Assembly: GCA_937992195.1 (NCBI GenBank)
Contig: CALKKV010000008.1
Coordinates: forward strand, 1 to 64,000
Source: an uncultured Gammaproteobacteria bacterium
Lineage (GTDB): Bacteria; Pseudomonadota; Gammaproteobacteria; Arenicellales; Poriferihabitantaceae
Length of the DNA stretch: 64,000 nucleotides
Direction of reading: 5' to 3'
A program made the position numbers and the translations under genes. The first letter of the stretch is position 1. Every line of letters begins with the position of its first letter. This document shows positions 2,266 to 58,069 of this stretch, piece by piece. The notes beneath the pieces are model-generated. The model was not told the DNA's origin. It saw only the letters and a program-made list of their open reading frames with translations, and made no database searches.

Positions 2266-2661
2266 AAGAGTTATCACAACGTTTGGGCGCAATACGAAGA
2301 ATACTGACGAACAGCAATAAAATACAGATTTATTTTGTAGATTTCGGCAAACAAGCAGTTACTAATCTCCCGCGGCATATCCGGGGACAGTTTAATTCAC
2401 GTCTGGGGATTTGGCGGTTGATCCCACTCCTTGTCAGATATTCTGTGATTACAGCCTCCCAGAGAAGTCAATCTGCCGTAATTGTTAGGCATAACTAACG
2501 AGCAATATGTTGTGATAGAAGGTCTTCTTCGTGCTTCGCTGACTGGTTAAGTAAGGCGTATAGCAATGCACACATAGTAAAAATAGGACATAATGACCAG
2601 ACCAAAAGTCGTTTATTGGAGCGTTATAACTAAAGATTCACCCACTATACTGGAGATTTTC
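2266..2661. other. Divergent intergenic region with a GGGGACAG-type repeat
   Basis: This spacer lies between the leftward PhyH gene and the rightward importer operon and must hold both promoters. It is AT-rich near 2560-2650, and TGGAGATTTTC at 2651-2661 supplies the ribosome-binding site for the ATG at 2662. A repeat-like sequence lies at 2376-2400. No gene is seen. Confidence 0.5.
2376..2400. repeat. Degenerate GGGGACAGTTTAATT repeat, copy 1
   Basis: Reads CATATCCGGGGACAGTTTAA. Related copies lie at 7943-7959 (AATCCGAGGACAGTTTA), 13098-13117 and 44123-44143. Sequences of this kind are common in gammaproteobacteria around IS200-like/REP-associated transposase genes; that association is from general knowledge and no transposase is attached here. 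Confidence 0.5.
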
Positions 2662-3744
2662 ATGATTCATACTAAAGCTTCGCCGCAGTCCATGCGGTCA
2701 CTGATTTTTTCTGCAACACTTGCCACCGCATTATTCACCGTCAGCTCGCACGCCGAACCTATCACAGTGGTTTCCTGGGGCGGCACTTATGGTGATGCTC
2801 AAGACGCCGCATTATTTAACGATGCATCAAAAAACTCGGGCATTGAAATTATCCGGGAATCCGGAGCAAGCATGTCGAAAGCGTGTCTACAGGTTGAGTC
2901 CGGTTCGGTGACATGGGATTTGGTTGTTACCGGTTCCGGTGGTGCAGCTTCTGCTGCCGAGAAAGGTTGTTTGGAAAAGATCGACTATAGTGTCGTCGAT
3001 GTTTCCAATTTCTACCCGAATCTGTATACCGACTATTGTGTTGGTTCAGATGTGTTCGCAACGGTATTTTCTTGGAATACCGACAAATATGGTGAGCCTG
3101 GATCAGCTGGCGCACCCAACTCTTGGACGGATTTTTGGGATGTAGAAAAATTTCCCGGAACTCGCGCATACCGTGCAAATAACGTGGACGGTGCACTTGA
3201 GCCAGCGCTAATGGCAGATGGTGTGCCAGCAGATCAAGTCTATGAAGTGCTTTCTACCAAAGAAGGTATGATGCGGGCGATCAATAAGATTCGTGAGTTG
3301 AAACCTCATATCGAAGTATTTTGGGATTCGGGTGCACAACAAGCACAGCTTATGAAAGACGGTGAAGTCGACATGACCACCGGTTGGAATGGTCGATTTG
3401 ACAATGCGAAGAAAGATGGCGCAACTGTCGGATACACATTTAACCAGGCGTTGTTGGATTACGATTGCTTTGCGATGCCCAAAGGGGCGCCAAATAAAGA
3501 TACTGCGATGAAGTTTCTTGCTGAAATTTCTAAGGCAGAATATCAGGCTAACCTGCCTTTCCACATTACTTATGGGCCAACCAATAAGAAAGCCTACGAT
3601 GTCACCACGGCTTCCCAGGAACTCCTTGAGTCACTGCCATCACATCCAAACAATGTGCCGCTTATGGTGCCCGTTAGTCTAGACTGGTATGCAAAAAACA
3701 GAACGCAAGCACTAGAGCTTTATATGGAACTATTAAGCGAGTAA
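2662..3744 (+). CDS. PotD-like periplasmic solute-binding protein (polyamine/amine ABC importer)
   Basis: 360 residues with a Sec signal peptide of about 30 residues ending SSHA|EP. The mature protein starts with ITVVSWGGTYGD, the usual opening of family-1 binding proteins of the PotD/PotF group that bind spermidine, putrescine or related cations. The ATG at 2662 is preferred over an upstream in-frame ATG at 2593 because it follows a GGAG and gives a clean signal peptide. First gene of an importer operon (ATPase 3823, permeases 4977 and 5848), separated from the ATPase gene by a terminator hairpin. With Rieske oxygenases next door, the ligand may be a quaternary amine rather than a polyamine. 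Confidence 0.85.
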   Translation: MIHTKASPQSMRSLIFSATLATALFTVSSHAEPITVVSWGGTYGDAQDAALFNDASKNSGIEIIRESGASMSKACLQVESGSVTWDLVVTGSGGAASAAEKGCLEKIDYSVVDVSNFYPNLYTDYCVGSDVFATVFSWNTDKYGEPGSAGAPNSWTDFWDVEKFPGTRAYRANNVDGALEPALMADGVPADQVYEVLSTKEGMMRAINKIRELKPHIEVFWDSGAQQAQLMKDGEVDMTTGWNGRFDNAKKDGATVGYTFNQALLDYDCFAMPKGAPNKDTAMKFLAEISKAEYQANLPFHITYGPTNKKAYDVTTASQELLESLPSHPNNVPLMVPVSLDWYAKNRTQALELYMELLSE

Positions 3745-3766
3745 ATCTGTTCGTTTGTATGCAGAT

Positions 3767-33900: not shown

Positions 33901-34241
33901 TGTTTTCTCCTATGAAAGGTAGTCAAAAATTTAGTAAATAGAAATAAAGGGTTAAATTCAAAGTGGTAACTGAATTTCCACACCATCTACCGTATTCCCT
34001 TGTCTAGCATTTGAGAATTCCCTAAAACCGACTAGAGCCTATACAAATTTGAACAGCCGGAAAAATGAACTTTTTTGCTATTTCATAACTGCATAAAGGG
34101 TATGCACAAATAGCCAATACCCTTTATTTATCTGTGAGATATAGTGGTCGTATCTTGTCTAGTCGAGCTAAAGCTCTTTTTTATGTCCTCCTTGATTCAG
34201 TTTATGGGCCGCTACTTTCTTATCTTTACTATTCCTACACC
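33901..34241. other. AT-rich divergent promoter region
   Basis: No gene. It separates the leftward CHRD gene from the rightward LysR gene and is strongly AT-rich between 33910 and 34140, as expected for two back-to-back promoters. An in-frame extension of the LysR gene from 34134 has no family support. Confidence 0.5.
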
Positions 34242-35144
34242 ATGTTAAAAATATGGGATGATCTAAGGTGTTTTCTAGCGGTCGCCGAAACCGAAAGGCT
34301 GTCAGCTGCTGCGCAAAAAATTGGTAAAAGTCAGATATCTATCGTCGAGCAGATCGAGGGTTTGGAGGAGAGTTTGGATGCAAAATTGTTTATCCTTTTT
34401 GGTGAAAGGTTTACGAAAACAGAGTTAGGAAAAATAATATTTCTCTTAACTTTAGAGATTGAAGAAACTGTGCTTGATACAGAACGGTTTTCCGGTAAAA
34501 GAGAATCAGAAGCTAAGGGTAAAGTAAGTATTGCTATTACCGAGTGTATGGCTTCGTACTGGTTAGTTAGTAAACTGCCGCTACTATCGCAACGCTATCC
34601 AAAAATCGATTTGGAAATATTGACAGGAATCAACGGTGTGGAACTGCTGGAAAAGAAAGCAGATATTACCCTGTGTCTGGGCGAAACCAACTCAGAGATG
34701 TGGAGCAAGCGGAAAGTCGGTTGGGTTGAGTTTGGTCTCTACGTTTCTGACGAGTATCTTCGCAAATTCGGAGAACCCAAAAATTTTGGCTCACTTAGAA
34801 ACCATCGTGTGATTCAAGCTTCCAGGGAGTTGGCTAACCAGTCGCAGGCAGATGCTCTTCGTAACGTTGTGGAAAAGAGTGAAATTGCGTTTTCTACGAA
34901 TAGTATATTGGTTCAGTATATGGCAGCAACCGATGGTCTTGGTATCGCGGTATTGCCAAACTACTTGGTGGATGGTTCGCTAAATCTGCAACGTTTGCTG
35001 CCCGCGGAGTTTTCTATCAAACATGAACTGTGGTTGCTTTGTCATCATCACTCTATGGAAACAAGTACGTCACGTTACGTTTTGGAGTTTTTGACTGATT
35101 CACTAAAAAAAGATAGTCAGCTCTTTTGTCGGAATCTTGAGTAA
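34242..35144 (+). CDS. LysR-family transcriptional regulator (1)
   Basis: 300 residues from the ATG at 34242, where the usual LysR start (WDDLRCFLAVAETERLSAAA) begins. The winged helix-turn-helix is recognisable but divergent: KSQISIVEQIEGLEESLDAKLF replaces the usual QPAVSRxIxxLE pattern. The effector-binding domain follows (KVSIAITECMASYW). Convergent with a paralogue that ends 4 bases away. Target genes unknown; its upstream neighbour is the CHRD gene. Confidence 0.85.
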   Translation: MLKIWDDLRCFLAVAETERLSAAAQKIGKSQISIVEQIEGLEESLDAKLFILFGERFTKTELGKIIFLLTLEIEETVLDTERFSGKRESEAKGKVSIAITECMASYWLVSKLPLLSQRYPKIDLEILTGINGVELLEKKADITLCLGETNSEMWSKRKVGWVEFGLYVSDEYLRKFGEPKNFGSLRNHRVIQASRELANQSQADALRNVVEKSEIAFSTNSILVQYMAATDGLGIAVLPNYLVDGSLNLQRLLPAEFSIKHELWLLCHHHSMETSTSRYVLEFLTDSLKKDSQLFCRNLE

Positions 35145-35148
35145 CAAT

Positions 35149-36039
35149 TCATTGAACCAAAAGAGTTTTATCATTTTTAATTTGATCTTTGAAGAAATCT
35201 CTAACAGCGCTCACTCGTGCGGTAAACTTTAAACCACGGTGGGTTAGCAACCAAATGTCGAGCGTTGTCTCGAATTCTTCAAGTAAGATGCGCTTTAGGT
35301 TTGGCGATCTCTCAGCGACATAGTTTGGCAGTGATGTGATACCGAGTCCGTTAACGACAGCTTGAGTTTGTATGGCAAGGTTATTGGTGAACAAACCTAT
35401 ATTGGATTGTTCTGTGAGAGAGCGTAATTCACGTGCCTGGATGAAATTTGCGATCTCGCCAACAGCTTCAATTATTTTGTGGTCGGCGAGATCAGACAGC
35501 TTGCGTGGTTCATTGAATTGCGCCAAATATTCAGTAGATGCGTAAAGACCGAATCCAACCTTACCCAAACACTGACCAACTAGTTCTTCATCCCCTGGGC
35601 TCCCAATTCGAAGTGCGACATCTGATTCACGCCTGAGCATATCTACCTGGGATATACCGCCGATGATTTCAAGTGTGATATCTGGGTGTTGCTCGTGAAA
35701 CAAAGGAATCTTCTCGAGTACCCAGGTGCTAGCTAGTCCCTCGCTGGTTGCAAGGGAAACTTTGCCTTCCAGTTTTTTCTCTTCACCAGATACCTGGTTG
35801 CTTATGATCCATGCGTTTTCCTCAATAGCAATTGCCGAATCCAAAATTTCTTCTCCAGTTGAGCTTAACAATAAACCATTTGGTAACCGTTCAAACAATC
35901 TAGCATCTAATGCATCTTCCATGGCTTTAATACGTCGTCCTACAGTCGGTTGAGTTACGCCGAGTTTTCGAGCGGCGCCGGACAGACTACCTGTTTCAGA
36001 AACAGCGAGGAAGTAGCGAATATCGTTTAGATCATACAT
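35149..36039 (-). CDS. LysR-family transcriptional regulator (2)
   Basis: 296 residues. Textbook N-terminal helix-turn-helix (DIRYFLAVSETGSLSGAARK, TQPTVGRRIKAMEDALDARLF) and a substrate-binding-like effector domain. It shares many positions with LysR (1), including the IPLFHEQHPDITLEIIGGI/LPLLSQRYPKIDLEILTGI region. It is tail-to-tail with it, which suggests an inverted local duplication. Its promoter region faces the peroxiredoxin / methanethiol oxidase group. Confidence 0.88.
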   Translation of the reverse strand: MYDLNDIRYFLAVSETGSLSGAARKLGVTQPTVGRRIKAMEDALDARLFERLPNGLLLSSTGEEILDSAIAIEENAWIISNQVSGEEKKLEGKVSLATSEGLASTWVLEKIPLFHEQHPDITLEIIGGISQVDMLRRESDVALRIGSPGDEELVGQCLGKVGFGLYASTEYLAQFNEPRKLSDLADHKIIEAVGEIANFIQARELRSLTEQSNIGLFTNNLAIQTQAVVNGLGITSLPNYVAERSPNLKRILLEEFETTLDIWLLTHRGLKFTARVSAVRDFFKDQIKNDKTLLVQ

Positions 36040-36359: not shown

Positions 36360-37013
36360 CTAATCTGGGGCTTTGGTAAACCGTAAGTACGGAAATACGG
36401 TATTGAACGAACCGAATTTTTCTTTGGCGTCTTCGTCACTAACAGTCGGTGGGATAATCACATCCTCACCAGACTGCCAATTCGCCGGTGTGGCAACACC
36501 CTTCGCCGCTGTGGTTTGCAATGCTTCCAAAGCGCGCACAATTTCCGCGAAATTACGGCCGACAGTCATCGGGTATGTCATGGAGAGTTTCAACTGCTTA
36601 TCGGGGCCAATAATGAAAACCGAGCGAACCGTAGCACTGTCGGCAGGTGTTCTTCCGTCAGGCATATAGGCTTCAGCAGGTAGCATATCAAAGAGTTTTG
36701 ACACCTCTAGCCCGATATCGGCAATGATGGGAAAGCCCGCTTTTGCTTTTGAAAACGTTTCAATATCGTTTTTCCATTTCTTGTGGTCTTCGGCGTTGTC
36801 TACAGACACGCCAATCACTTTGGTATTCCGTTTTTCCCACTCATCCATCAACTGCGATACAGCGCCAAACTCTGTTGTGCAAACTGGAGTGAAATCTTTT
36901 GGATGTGAAAACAGGATGGCCCAGCTATCGCCAATCCACTCGTGAAAATTAATCGGGCCCTGGTCTGTTTCAGCGGTGAAGTCGGGTACGGTTGCGTTAA
37001 TTCGTAAACTCAT
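36360..37013 (-). CDS. 1-Cys peroxiredoxin (Prx6 type)
   Basis: 217 residues. Peroxidatic Cys45 in HPKDFTPVCTTEFG, plus the C-terminal extension typical of Prx6-class enzymes (GEDVIIPPTVSDEDAKEKF). It reduces H2O2 and organic peroxides in the cytoplasm. It lies downstream, same strand, of a methanethiol oxidase gene, whose reaction releases H2O2, so local detoxification is a natural role. ATG start after AGGG. Confidence 0.9.
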   Translation of the reverse strand: MSLRINATVPDFTAETDQGPINFHEWIGDSWAILFSHPKDFTPVCTTEFGAVSQLMDEWEKRNTKVIGVSVDNAEDHKKWKNDIETFSKAKAGFPIIADIGLEVSKLFDMLPAEAYMPDGRTPADSATVRSVFIIGPDKQLKLSMTYPMTVGRNFAEIVRALEALQTTAAKGVATPANWQSGEDVIIPPTVSDEDAKEKFGSFNTVFPYLRFTKAPD

Positions 37014-37105
37014 TGTTTCTCCCTATTTTAGAGGTTAAATTAATATTGAAAAATGTCTTGTAAGTAAGACGAAAACAGGTTTCACTGAAATACTACATCT
37101 GATTG

Positions 37106-37765
37106 TTAATGACCATGTAGCGCTGCAGTGATACCAAAAATGCCAACCAGGATTAAACTGATCGCCCACACAAGATCAAGATTAAACCAAGTTTTAGAGA
37201 GGAATTTCAGACCCAGCCAGAAGTAAATAATAGTTGCGATAATAGCACCCGCAGCTGTCATCGCCATTGTATGGATAAATGCAACTACGAATGCAGTTAT
37301 GACGTTGTTGTCCATCAATAGTTGCGCAGCATGATGCCCTGCCGAATGATCATCATGCCCGGCAATGCCCAAAAAAATGGGAACCAACATTAGTCCAGCG
37401 CCATGTGCCATTGCTGCCAGAAAAGACCACAACGCCAAGCGCGCAGGGTGCACTCTCGCCAATATTTTTGGGTGGCGTCGGTTAATAAGCAAATAGATTC
37501 CCATTGCAATAACTAGTAGTCCAGCACCTAATCGAATCTGTATTTCCCATTCGATTAAAATAGTCATTAATGAAAATGGCAACAGTATGCCAATCATTGC
37601 CAGAAAATGCCCGAGGCCTAACATAGCAATAGCCTTGGGCATGGCACTGTGCTTTTTTTCCATCAATGCGGCTGACACTGCCAAAGGCCAGCCCATGCCT
37701 GGATTAATGCCGTGATAAAAGCCGGAAAAAACAACGGCCCCCCAAAGGGCCGTTGCTGTTGTCAT
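37106..37765 (-). CDS. Polytopic membrane protein with His-rich loop (possible metal transporter)
   Basis: 219 residues from the ATG at 37765 (a GTG at 37771 is possible), six or seven hydrophobic segments. Conserved-looking motifs are FYHGINPGMGWPLAV near the start and AMAHGAGLMLVPIFLG in the middle, followed by the His-rich loop HDDHSAGHH. The layout recalls NiCoT/RcnA and TauE-like metal or sulfur transporters, but I know no characterised member. It lies between the methanethiol oxidase, a copper enzyme in studied cases, and the peroxiredoxin. A terminator-like hairpin lies inside its first codons. Confidence 0.65.
   Translation of the reverse strand: MTTATALWGAVVFSGFYHGINPGMGWPLAVSAALMEKKHSAMPKAIAMLGLGHFLAMIGILLPFSLMTILIEWEIQIRLGAGLLVIAMGIYLLINRRHPKILARVHPARLALWSFLAAMAHGAGLMLVPIFLGIAGHDDHSAGHHAAQLLMDNNVITAFVVAFIHTMAMTAAGAIIATIIYFWLGLKFLSKTWFNLDLVWAISLILVGIFGITAALHGH
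37726..37755 (-). terminator. Terminator-like hairpin inside the start of the membrane protein gene
   Basis: On the coding strand, CAACGGCCC, a 6-nt loop and GGGCCGTTG form a perfect 9-bp, GC-rich stem followed directly by TTTTTT. This has every mark of an intrinsic terminator, yet it begins only about 10 bases after the start codon of the gene at 37106 and 40 bases past the methanethiol oxidase stop. It may end most of the upstream transcript or attenuate the downstream gene. Confidence 0.65.
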
Positions 37766-37794
37766 ATCCACTAATGATTAAACGCAACAAATAG

Positions 37795-39195
37795 TTAAAC
37801 AGATGGGTAACAAAAACTATCAGTTGAACAATCGCCACCTTCAAGTCTTATCTGATGCGCACGTAAACCCTGTGGAAAGTCGATATAGAAATCTTTGTCA
37901 AGTTCTAATCCGCCGTTTTTTCCAACATGCGCCATCACCATTTGACCACCTTCATCGTTAGGATAGAACTGATCGTCCCAAGTGGAGTACAGTGAATTGG
38001 TCCAGTACACTCGTTCTCCATCACGGCTTATTTCTACCATTTGAGGACCAAAAGCAAAGCCTTTACCGTTAGGATGTTTGTGATGTGCAATGATGCCACC
38101 AAGCTCAACTTTTCCAGCAAGCTTGGGGTTCAATGGGTCTGAGACATCATACTGATGCATTTCTCCCAGCCCCCAACAGGCGACGTACAGATATTTATCA
38201 TCGAGACTTAAATCAATATCAGTCACTAATGGCGGTACTGCTTCAAAACCTTTTAACAGCTCAGGTAATTCATCGGCTGAAGCCGGCACAGGATCGATAG
38301 TAATGGTTTTTTTGGATTGCCATTTACCATCATCGTCACGCCACCAGGTAAAAATAGCGCCTTGTAAATTAGTGGTATCCACAACAACACCACAAAAGCC
38401 GTATGACTTTGTTGGGTCGTGTGCGGGGCGTACTTCAAGGGCCATCTGGTAGTTCTCACCAAAGTCCATTGTCTGGATATTTTTGCGAGCGCGTAAATCC
38501 CAAAAATGAATAGAGTGACCATACTTATTAGCTAGTAGATCCTCCGGCACAATACCGTTCTCAAATTGTGGCGGTAAACCCCACTCAGAACTCACCATAT
38601 AATCCTGTGGCAAATTCCACCAGAAGTCATAGTGCTTGTCTTGTTTGCCTCGATCCATCTCATAACGTCCGATAATTTCAAACGTTTCGCAGTCCATAAT
38701 AAAAATTCCTGGAGGGCCATCTGTACCATCAGAACCAGCGCCACCCAAGGTGGAAACATAAATACCTTCTGGTCCACAGTGGATAGTGTGCGGACGTGAA
38801 TAGCCTGTTTTTTCAAACAGCTCTTCTGGTTCAATCGTTTTGTGAATTTTTGCTTTTAACGGATCTTTAACATCGATGATATAAATACGAGAGGATCGAA
38901 TACCCGGAACTATCAGATATCGCCTTTCCAGAAAAGCATGACCACTAAGCGGTGATAATGATGAGGAACAAGCATTCCAACCAAAGTGATGAAATTCATC
39001 ACCTTTATTGGGGACTATAACCTGATGAACTATTTCACCATACGTTTTCGAATCTGGATTAAGGTCAACAACGGCAATTCCGTCAGACATTTCTCCATCG
39101 GGGCTTAGCATGACGGTAAAAGCGTAGTTTTCTGACGGCGCTTGCATGGCAAGCTTTGCAGATGCGTGGAACGTTGGATCGGGTCTTATATTCAT
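37795..39195 (-). CDS. Methanethiol oxidase / selenium-binding protein (SBP56 family)
   Basis: 466 residues, the normal family length. Hallmarks are NACSSSLS near residue 75, RPHTIHCGPEG, DFWWNLPQDYMVSSEWG and the Cys-containing end GGDCSTDSFCYPSV. The family oxidises methanethiol to formaldehyde, H2S and H2O2 in bacterial MtoX. No signal peptide is evident from this start, whereas studied MtoX is periplasmic. The ATG follows AGGAGTAAAG. Upstream of a His-rich membrane protein and a 1-Cys peroxiredoxin; the SCO-type copper chaperone often near mtoX is absent here. Confidence 0.87.
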   Translation of the reverse strand: MNIRPDPTFHASAKLAMQAPSENYAFTVMLSPDGEMSDGIAVVDLNPDSKTYGEIVHQVIVPNKGDEFHHFGWNACSSSLSPLSGHAFLERRYLIVPGIRSSRIYIIDVKDPLKAKIHKTIEPEELFEKTGYSRPHTIHCGPEGIYVSTLGGAGSDGTDGPPGIFIMDCETFEIIGRYEMDRGKQDKHYDFWWNLPQDYMVSSEWGLPPQFENGIVPEDLLANKYGHSIHFWDLRARKNIQTMDFGENYQMALEVRPAHDPTKSYGFCGVVVDTTNLQGAIFTWWRDDDGKWQSKKTITIDPVPASADELPELLKGFEAVPPLVTDIDLSLDDKYLYVACWGLGEMHQYDVSDPLNPKLAGKVELGGIIAHHKHPNGKGFAFGPQMVEISRDGERVYWTNSLYSTWDDQFYPNDEGGQMVMAHVGKNGGLELDKDFYIDFPQGLRAHQIRLEGGDCSTDSFCYPSV

Positions 39196-40131
39196 TATCT
39201 TTACTCCTACTTCCTCGACAGTTTAAAAATGACGGCGGGATAAAAAATAGACAGCTTAGAGAGCAAACACCCGGAAATTCGAACACGATTATTTCCAAAT
39301 AAACTATCTAAAACTTAATCACTTCGCCCACTCTATGTGCTCATGTTCTGTCTCTGATTATTTGGGAGTTTGGTCCGTTCACCCTGAAGCTTGTGTTGTG
39401 CCACGTTAAGTTAGGTATTTTAAAATTCCCGAATTATGAGACAAATTATCAATATATGAGAAAACGTATCATAAGATCAATTGCGGCATTTATCAAGATA
39501 GCAGTCGCGCACATGAGTTATTCAGCCGTTTTGCCTGATTCAGGATTCAGATCTATGCAAAAAAATGGGAGAAGTTAGGGGATAGATCAATTTGCAATCT
39601 TTGACAATTTAGCGATCTCTAACATTTTAATTTTAAGAAACTGCTCGTATTAGTTTTAAATTCACTCAGTTCTACCTATTTAGCCCCAATCAGGACGATA
39701 TTCCTGGAGCTACAGGGCGCTTTTCGATTCCAAAAGTTTTCAATGCTGGAGGGTCATGTATCTAAATAGATAGTGATTCAACAATTTTTCTCAGAACAGT
39801 TACCAATAAACGATATGAAGAGTGGAAGAATCGTCAGCAGTAAACAGTTTTCCTATTTTAGATGACTATCGATACTTTATGAATCTGGTTTTAGGGTTAG
39901 TAAGAACAGCATAAAGCGAATGTGAGAGAGCCGTGTCTTGCGATAGTATTCCGGATAGTCTGAATAGCCAAAACCACGTCTTTTCAGGTAAGCTTCTAGT
40001 CATTCGGGTTCTCTGGCTCTGATGTTTCGGGTGGTGGATTCTCCATAGTACGGCAGTATTTCTAGTTGCAAGCCTTTTAGGCTTATGCCCTTGATAGCTT
40101 GTTTCTCTAATTCAACAAGAGGGTAAGAATA
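39196..40131. other. Long AT-rich gene-free region
   Basis: About 930 bp with no credible gene: short frames here have no ribosome-binding site or family. It separates the leftward methanethiol oxidase from the rightward importer operon and presumably contains both promoters. AAGAGGGTAAG at about 40118-40128 is the ribosome-binding site of the gene at 40132. I see no tRNA or riboswitch-like structure. Confidence 0.5.
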
Positions 40132-57033: not shown

Positions 57034-57066
57034 CATAAAAAAGCCGACCCAAATTAATGGGTCGGC
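57034..57066 (-). terminator. Intrinsic terminator of the porin gene
   Basis: On the minus strand GCCGACCCA, a 6-nt loop and TGGGTCGGC make a perfect 9-bp stem followed by TTTTTTATG, 26 bases past the porin stop. Confidence 0.85.
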
Positions 57067-57091: not shown

Positions 57092-58069
57092 CTAGAATCT
57101 GATGCGTGCACCCAGAGCGAAAGCATCGCCGTCAACACCATCTCGGTTTTCAAAATCCACATAGTTCGCGTAGATTTCCAAACCTGGCGTAGGCTTAATA
57201 TTTATACCAAGAATGCTCATTTCATCTGTTCCGGTTAATGCGGTGGTAACGCCTTCATCGTTAGTAATAGTGCTTTGGTCAAAGTCACCGGTACCAATAG
57301 ACACGGTGGTAATTCCAATGGTGTAACTTGCCATCAACCAGTCTGTCTCGCGCTCTGCCAGAGGGTTGTCGTCTTCGGAGAATGAATATGATAAACCAAA
57401 GCCGATGCCATGTTTGTAGGCAATTGATGAGGAAGTAACGTCTCCGGAATCACGATCGACGAAACCAGCGCGAGCGTCTAATGTTCCTCCAGCGACATCG
57501 CCCTTGTAGAAAAAAGAAACCTCGTTAGTATCGCCACTATTGGCAGATAGTGCAGCACGAAAACCGCCGAAGTTAGGCGTATCGTAGCGAATCCGGTTCT
57601 GTCTACCTATACCGTCGATGGATCGATAGTTAAGATCCAGGACGCCTGCAAACAGCAACCAAGATTCAGCGCCTCCTAAGTAGTTAAGTAGACCATAAGC
57701 TTCGAAGGTGCTGTCCGTAGCACCATCACCTTTACCAACTCCAATCTTTCCAAAAGGTCCGCCGACAAAGACATCAGAAACTCTGACTTCAGTGTCGGTT
57801 CTGTCCTCTAACGTATTGGAAACATTATCCTGATCCTGGAATTCCAGGCGGAAACCGGTATTGTAGTTGCCACCAAAATCCTGCTTGCCTCGGATTCTGA
57901 ATCGACTGCCAGATGTATTGTTGTCCACTACTTCCAGGTCTTCGACGTCTCCGCCAAACACTGCGGCTGAGTTAACCTGTCCGGAAAGATTAAAGTCGAA
58001 AGAATGGCTTGGTAAAGAAACAAGCAGGGAAGCACACGCGACACCAGTGCCCAACATAAATTTATTCAT
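57092..58069 (-). CDS. Gram-negative general porin
   Basis: 325 residues with a signal peptide (about 23 residues, ending SHS|FD) and an AGGAG ribosome-binding site. The mature part begins FNLSGQVNSAAV, shows alternating strand residues and ends ALGARIRF with terminal Phe, the outer-membrane insertion signal. A trimeric 16-strand porin of the OmpC/PorB-like superfamily is expected. Followed by a strong terminator; single-gene unit. Confidence 0.88.
   Translation of the reverse strand: MNKFMLGTGVACASLLVSLPSHSFDFNLSGQVNSAAVFGGDVEDLEVVDNNTSGSRFRIRGKQDFGGNYNTGFRLEFQDQDNVSNTLEDRTDTEVRVSDVFVGGPFGKIGVGKGDGATDSTFEAYGLLNYLGGAESWLLFAGVLDLNYRSIDGIGRQNRIRYDTPNFGGFRAALSANSGDTNEVSFFYKGDVAGGTLDARAGFVDRDSGDVTSSSIAYKHGIGFGLSYSFSEDDNPLAERETDWLMASYTIGITTVSIGTGDFDQSTITNDEGVTTALTGTDEMSILGINIKPTPGLEIYANYVDFENRDGVDGDAFALGARIRF

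Follow-up and report, generated by a model that had tools for sequence, protein, structure and literature searches.

The start of a membrane-protein gene in the window (the whole 64,000-nucleotide stretch of DNA analysed here) holds a hairpin followed by a run of T, which is best read, with a probability of roughly 0.64, as an operon-internal intrinsic (Rho-independent) terminator of the preceding SBP56-family gene that sets the amount of membrane-protein mRNA. The hairpin is kept in many related bacteria by matching synonymous codons. The element probably stops part of the transcription arriving from the SBP56 gene, and its position within the opening codons of the following gene would be due to the near contact of the two genes. 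A polymerase that has passed the SBP56 gene would make the hairpin and the U-tract before a ribosome engages the new gene; a share of the polymerases would stop at the U-tract, and the others would read on and yield the membrane-protein mRNA. The SBP56 mRNA would keep the stem at its 3' end, where it may also have a protective role. The ratio of the two products would be set by the strength of the hairpin and the U-tract and perhaps also, in relatives whose stem lies ~17-27 nt past the stop codon, by the ribosome that completes SBP56 translation. We infer this termination, its efficiency and its ratio-setting role from the observations below.

Both genes lie on the minus strand. The SBP56-family gene (39195-37795, stop codon TAA at 37797-37795) encodes a methanethiol-oxidase-like protein of 466 amino acids, and the membrane-protein gene (37771-37106), which holds the element, encodes 221 amino acids from GTG at 37771-37769 or the in-frame ATG at 37765-37763. 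The earlier note named the upstream protein methanethiol oxidase. Its place in the SBP56 family stands (571 bits for Pfam SBP56, PF05694, against a gathering score of 34); the specific name is less secure, with 130 bits for the NCBIfam MtoX equivalog NF052453, under the cut-off of 650. Since the protein passes the former and fails the latter, methanethiol oxidase is only a lead. On a Marinovum plasmid the pair, with a long spacer and no selected hairpin, lies two genes past one annotated DMSP demethylase DmdA, which fits this lead. In the accessible text on the Ruegeria pomeroyi mtoX operon, the partners differ, being SCO1/SenC and MauG-like genes (PMC5739008). A gene of the 1-Cys peroxiredoxin type (36360-37013, minus strand) follows the pair in the window and in locus L014 (95% identical), and peroxiredoxin relatives occur near the pair in four further loci of 100, fitting the production of peroxide by a methanethiol oxidase. 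Further downstream, 34134-36039 holds two convergent ORFs of the LysR-family regulator type, end to end, with the LysR Pfam assignment confirmed for ORF 35149-36039 only. The membrane protein matched no Pfam or NCBIfam family at E 0.001. Its AlphaFold2 model is helical (mean pLDDT 81), and a fold search with this model gave no match (best E 0.45). DUF7103 matched weakly in three of five members (best E 0.0029), and below the cut-off for the window's protein. Comparison of 46 sequences showed that His55, His100 and His123 are invariant and His20, His146 and His167 near-invariant, a set suggestive of a metal or haem site.

On the minus strand the element consists of the 5' stem arm CAACGGCCC (37755-37747, codons of residues 6-8), the loop TTTGGG (37746-37741), the 3' stem arm GGGCCGTTG (37740-37732) and, directly 3' of the stem, the U-tract TTTTTT (37731-37726) in the Val-Phe codons GTT TTT. 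The 39-nt spacer from the SBP56 stop codon to the stem (37794-37756) contains the GTG (37771) and ATG (37765) start candidates, and a motif scan found no Shine-Dalgarno-like motif in it. These coordinates bear out the description in the earlier note of a 9-bp GC-rich stem plus TTTTTT in the first codons, about 10 bases into the gene and about 40 past the upstream one; the stem starts 10 nt past the first base of the ATG, 16 nt past that of the GTG and 39 nt past the upstream gene. The folding-energy calculation proposed there was equally favourable: the 35-nt RNA of 37725-37759 folds at -20.8 kcal/mol (z -4.96), and none of 200 shuffles is equally stable. With longer flanks, z is about -2.6 and 2-3 of 200 shuffles are equally stable. 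As for a competing antiterminator pairing upstream, the 76-nt fold around the hairpin adds just a weak helix, and in 59 of 86 close-spaced loci the stretch from the stop codon to the stem region is 21 nt. A search of 37000-39600 with Rfam 15 gave no match above gathering score; the best, STnc350, lies on the opposite strand and scores 21.9 bits where 60 would be needed (E 0.58). The terminator-like pattern is present on the RNA sense strand only, with no T-run next to the hairpin on the plus strand. The window copy has the sequence features of an intrinsic terminator, namely a stable GC-rich hairpin and a U-tract directly after the stem. A working terminator within a gene would, however, yield non-stop mRNA, which counts against this reading.

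When the 64-kb window was scanned on both strands for a hairpin followed by a T-run, 14 candidates emerged, of which four have a strength of at least -18 kcal/mol: 3764 on the plus strand, and 62912, 37756 (the membrane-gene element) and 57066 on the minus strand. The candidate at 3764 starts 19 nt past the end of ORF 2593-3744, and that at 57066 starts 25 nt past the end of ORF 57092-58069. A simpler pattern scan of the window did not list the element at 37756 (minus). Across 93 loci, a coding-strand scan of the two genes gave 40 terminator-like matches at the hairpin site and 30 elsewhere (190,918 nt). Such matches in the two genes are not rare, and what stands out is the pile-up at one place. 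A second match at ~37607 (minus), 140 nt into the membrane gene, has -15.1 in the window copy and is shared by L026, L041 and L064, and a match at -941 recurs in L036, L043 and L046 among the 20 of 30 off-site matches listed.

The loci came from whole-genome searches and one genome-contig scan (the best 80 of 573 confirmed matches). After anchoring, the set comprised 100 unique loci, of which 93, counting the copy in the window, have a protein identity of at least 60%. The named loci are mostly Rhodobacteraceae, with Rhizobiaceae, Granulosicoccaceae, Halomonas and Marinobacter also present, and many are metagenome bins. Left out were L003 and L004, which gave no membrane-gene match on comparison, and the duplicates L034, L060, L074, L083, L092 and L099. 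Five loci that failed the anchor pattern (L032, L079, L090, L091 and L103) were read apart from the main set, for fold energy and spacer; all fold at -19.4 to -24.5, and the spacer, obtained for all but L079, is 21 nt in the other four. L007-L013, at less than 60% identity, stand outside the 93-locus analyses of Phe codons, consensus, pair counts, position along the gene and terminator-like matches, and none of their folds is better than its own recoding null. The tree sets for covariation and spacer comprise 93 rows, 92 of the main loci plus L007. The SBP56 gene lies upstream in 92 of the 93 loci, and in the remaining one (L075) the contig ends before it. Among 14 genomes with SBP56 identity of 85-93%, none lacks the membrane gene. 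These come from a search for close SBP56 genes without a membrane gene, which matched SBP56 in 24 of 57 genomes; the other matches were one at 69% (with a 40% membrane-gene match) and nine at 43-45% identity. In the 60 nearest genomes, a strong match to the gene pair was found only in the window's own genome and in G002, with two more weak ones. Copies of the pair 85% and 76% identical come from another family of the class and from Alphaproteobacteria, and the pair also occurs on plasmids, a patchy spread that suggests horizontal transfer.

Comparison of synonymous sites in relatives, the check proposed by the earlier note, showed that the pairing is kept. The null was made of recodings with synonymous codons drawn by each locus's own codon usage. 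None of 300 recodings of the window copy folds as well. The 86 close-spaced loci have a mean fold of -19.7 compared with -11.9 for their recodings, and 86% of them have p <= 0.05, although these p-values are not independent because the loci are related. Along the gene, the mean z of the recoding test is -2.08 at the hairpin and from -0.67 to +0.11 in 34 other test windows. In the stem register, wobble bases pair with wobble bases; thus the peptide gives part of the stem and synonymous choice the rest. In the pair count over 93 loci, 93.5% of the cells are paired, and 36 cells are double changes, compared with 9.3 in shuffles (none of 500 reaching 36) and no more than 19 in any slid register. 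The two measures that relatedness affects least, namely how many pairs show double changes and how many pair types occur, are not exceptional (104 and 177 of 500 shuffles). On the SBP56 tree, two wobble pairs covary. Their 5' sides changed 13-14 times, and the pairs changed together versus apart at 4.4:0.3 and 5.4:0.1 (means over random pairings), with sign tests of median p 0.125 and 0.0625; crossed control pairs gave 2.0:0.4 and 1.7:1.8 among the control output listed, which has five of nine pairs in full. L032 has the same shape with a quite different stem (-24.5). In L002, the closest relative from the same genus, the hairpin is retained (-19.5) and the U-tract is absent. The synonymous-site conservation of the pairing supports the earlier idea that this DNA serves two roles, as coding sequence and as a terminator-like element. 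The Leu9 codon at the loop (37747-37745) is CTT in 56 of 93 loci versus 24 of 89 for the Leu preceding another conserved Trp (LWS). There seems to be a preference for T at this unpaired base that pairing does not explain.

The hairpin is not carried by every copy of the gene pair. More distant loci, at 49-65% identity, were taken from the 8 of 17 plasmid records examined. The hairpin is clearly selected in L138 from Phaeobacter piscinae (-19.7, p 0.000), whose junction lacks a U-tract. Two loci are equivocal, L140 at -20.9 (p 0.20, its spacer not properly measured) and L142 at -14.5 (p 0.34), and the recoding test showed no selected hairpin in L139, L141, L143, L144 and L145 (p 0.36-0.73). These five, which include Rhizobium, Cupriavidus and Agrobacterium, have spacers of 42, 100, 14, 11 and 42 nt, respectively, which are short in three or four of them. 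Judged by these sequences, the element belongs to one clade of the gene pair and not to all of it.

The bases after the stem show a codon bias of their own. Among the loci with Phe15, the codon is TTT in 39 of 41 (19.7 expected). In the 38 Phe15 loci with a hairpin and a short spacer, T-ending codons are found at residue 14 in 33 (10.8 expected), at residue 15 in 36 (17.8 expected) and at residue 16 in 16 (7.4 expected), and there is no T excess at residues 17-20. The bias is weaker in the 44 hairpin-bearing close-spaced loci without Phe15, where residue 14 is T-ending in 17 (9.2 expected) and the tail averages 3.3 T of 8. In the same 44 loci, His20 is T-ending in 3 (22.5 expected) and Tyr19 in 33 (21.0 expected). 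At least five T in the eight bases past the stem are present in 40 of 82 hairpin-bearing close-spaced loci, and the window's own tail has no more T than its codon use would readily give (p 0.11). With poor U-tracts behind half of the conserved hairpins, the chief alternative to termination is a role in protecting or processing mRNA: a conserved hairpin that does not terminate would guard the processed 3' end of the SBP56 mRNA, mark a processing site or slow initiating ribosomes, with the U-tract secondary. The hairpin is indeed better conserved than the U-tract, 42 of 82 loci having fewer than five T of eight, and loci without Phe15 fold no worse than those with it (means of -20.7 and -19.6). 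However, an unbroken run of six T stands where a terminator needs it in the window, and the Phe15 loci favour T at residues 14, 15 and 16 but not at 17-20. We consider this rival unlikely, though it deserves to be taken seriously, and prefer the terminator.

The hairpin is also linked to the distance from the upstream gene. The stem region begins exactly 21 nt past the SBP56 stop codon in 59 of the 86 close-spaced loci; the same count gives 38 nt for the window. The first in-frame start codon lies 0-3 nt past the stop in 67 of the 86, and a Shine-Dalgarno-like motif is present there in one. Seven of the 93 tree rows have a spacer of 58 nt or more, and in each of these the hairpin is weak (above -14 kcal/mol), compared with four of 86 short-spacer loci (L024, L048, L104 and L107; Fisher p 3.5e-8, with both the 58-nt and the -14 kcal/mol thresholds picked after seeing the data). 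Spacer class changed five times on the tree, with independent pairs at 3.9:0 (median p 0.125). L014, whose protein is 85% identical to that of the window, still has TALWGAV behind an 88-nt spacer and folds at only -8.6 kcal/mol. The long spacers of L007, L030 and L088 fold into hairpins of their own, with no obvious T-run by eye.

As far as the available text of the E. coli study goes (PMC4824070), ribosomes still lag behind RNA polymerase over the first 100 bp of a coding region, so that terminators placed there are efficient, and one 30 bp past the AUG works. Efficiency climbs with distance from the preceding stop codon, to ~27-30 nt, because the finishing ribosome hinders folding (PMC4824070). 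The 21-nt spacing of most relatives is within this graded range and the 38-39 nt of the window is beyond it, which, if the behaviour in E. coli carries over, leads us to expect a plain, fairly efficient terminator in the window and, possibly, gating by the upstream ribosome in the relatives. In a full version of such gating, the stem would lie at a fixed distance past the SBP56 stop codon, a ribosome close behind the polymerase would hinder it and the membrane gene would be transcribed, slow translation would lead to termination, and the window's spacer would have outgrown the gated range and left a plain terminator. This version is tentative, and we consider it unlikely. If ribosomes matter, the finishing one of the upstream gene is the likelier, because the spacing from its stop codon is conserved. 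The earlier note had assigned this part to translation of the early codons: ribosomes on the membrane gene would hold the hairpin open, and expression would depend on the gene's own ribosome loading. A ribosome at the start codon, which precedes the stem, would melt the hairpin, and start codons so close behind the SBP56 stop could allow quick re-initiation. However, a start just 10-16 nt before the stem leaves little time until the U-tract is transcribed, terminators this early in E. coli genes (first 100 bp) work (PMC4824070), and the Shine-Dalgarno-like motif is nearly absent. Early-codon control is thus doubtful, and we rate it as very unlikely. For the tie to a metabolite that the earlier note also suggested, the present results offer no support.

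The hairpin could also have no function in RNA, the conserved peptide TALW(W/G)AV happening to have a near-palindromic coding sequence. The peptide does favour pairing, recodings already folding at about -12 kcal/mol. However, they fold far less well than the real loci. Moreover, L014 (TALWGAV) and L023 (TALWWAV) fold at just -8.6 and -8.1, and L015, L032 and L113, which differ in both residues and stem, reach -18.4, -24.5 and -24.6, which makes an effect of the peptide alone highly improbable. A DNA palindrome bound by a dimeric transcription factor would explain the dyad symmetry (consensus core GGCCC-N6-GGGCC) but is scarcely credible given the G-U pairs in 33 of 93 loci at one position, compensated changes that preserve RNA pairing and not one site sequence, a distance from the preceding stop codon that most loci keep constant, and a T-run on one side only.

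The putative terminator has several known counterparts. In E. coli frd-ampC, the terminator of one gene is the attenuator of the next, in compact DNA; that element sits before the next coding sequence, whereas the window element is within it. A leader-peptide attenuator was considered and rejected, the upstream ORF being the 466-aa SBP56 gene and not a short leader. The attenuators of pyrBI and the amino-acid operons, as described in the accessible part of the source, likewise place a terminator inside a translated frame, but those frames are short leader peptides and the one in the window is a functional membrane-protein gene (PMC4824070). The tR2 constructs in E. coli, from the same partial text, carry a terminator in the first 100 bp of a coding sequence and at a graded stop-codon distance; they are engineered, whereas the window element is a natural, conserved, predicted terminator (PMC4824070). 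Internal intrinsic terminators set operon stoichiometry in the ABC importers of Ruminiclostridium cellulolyticum, which, in the portion of the report at hand, share with our element a stem-loop between a highly made first gene and its operon partner, variable U-tracts and partial read-through, predicted in our case (PMC9045158). Those stem-loops are intergenic, whereas the present one lies inside the coding sequence of the next gene and is held by synonymous choice (PMC9045158). The premature 3' ends in 5' UTRs and ORFs of E. coli also place RNA 3' ends within genes as regulation, but the cases in the available portion of that source are mainly Rho-dependent or processed, and it contains no conserved synonymous-site hairpin (PMC7815308). 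A literature search by title and abstract, with most subscription papers outside its scope, gave no description of such an element. The parts are known; their combination, a probable terminator that synonymous choice preserves within the start of a gene in loci from two classes, is a new form as far as we have seen.

Terminator-like matches in coding sequence are common in predictions and are mostly discounted. In the present case, selection on synonymous sites seems to maintain such a match in loci of two bacterial classes, and it may therefore offer a natural system in which termination in a gene start, and ribosome-polymerase coupling outside E. coli, could be measured. If gating by the upstream ribosome were true, the start of the membrane protein's first helix would be shaped partly by its own terminator in Alpha- and Gammaproteobacteria. 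On the terminator reading, recoding the membrane gene would delete a regulatory signal, and the two genes, which may have a part in methanethiol metabolism, should be expressed at a fixed ratio.
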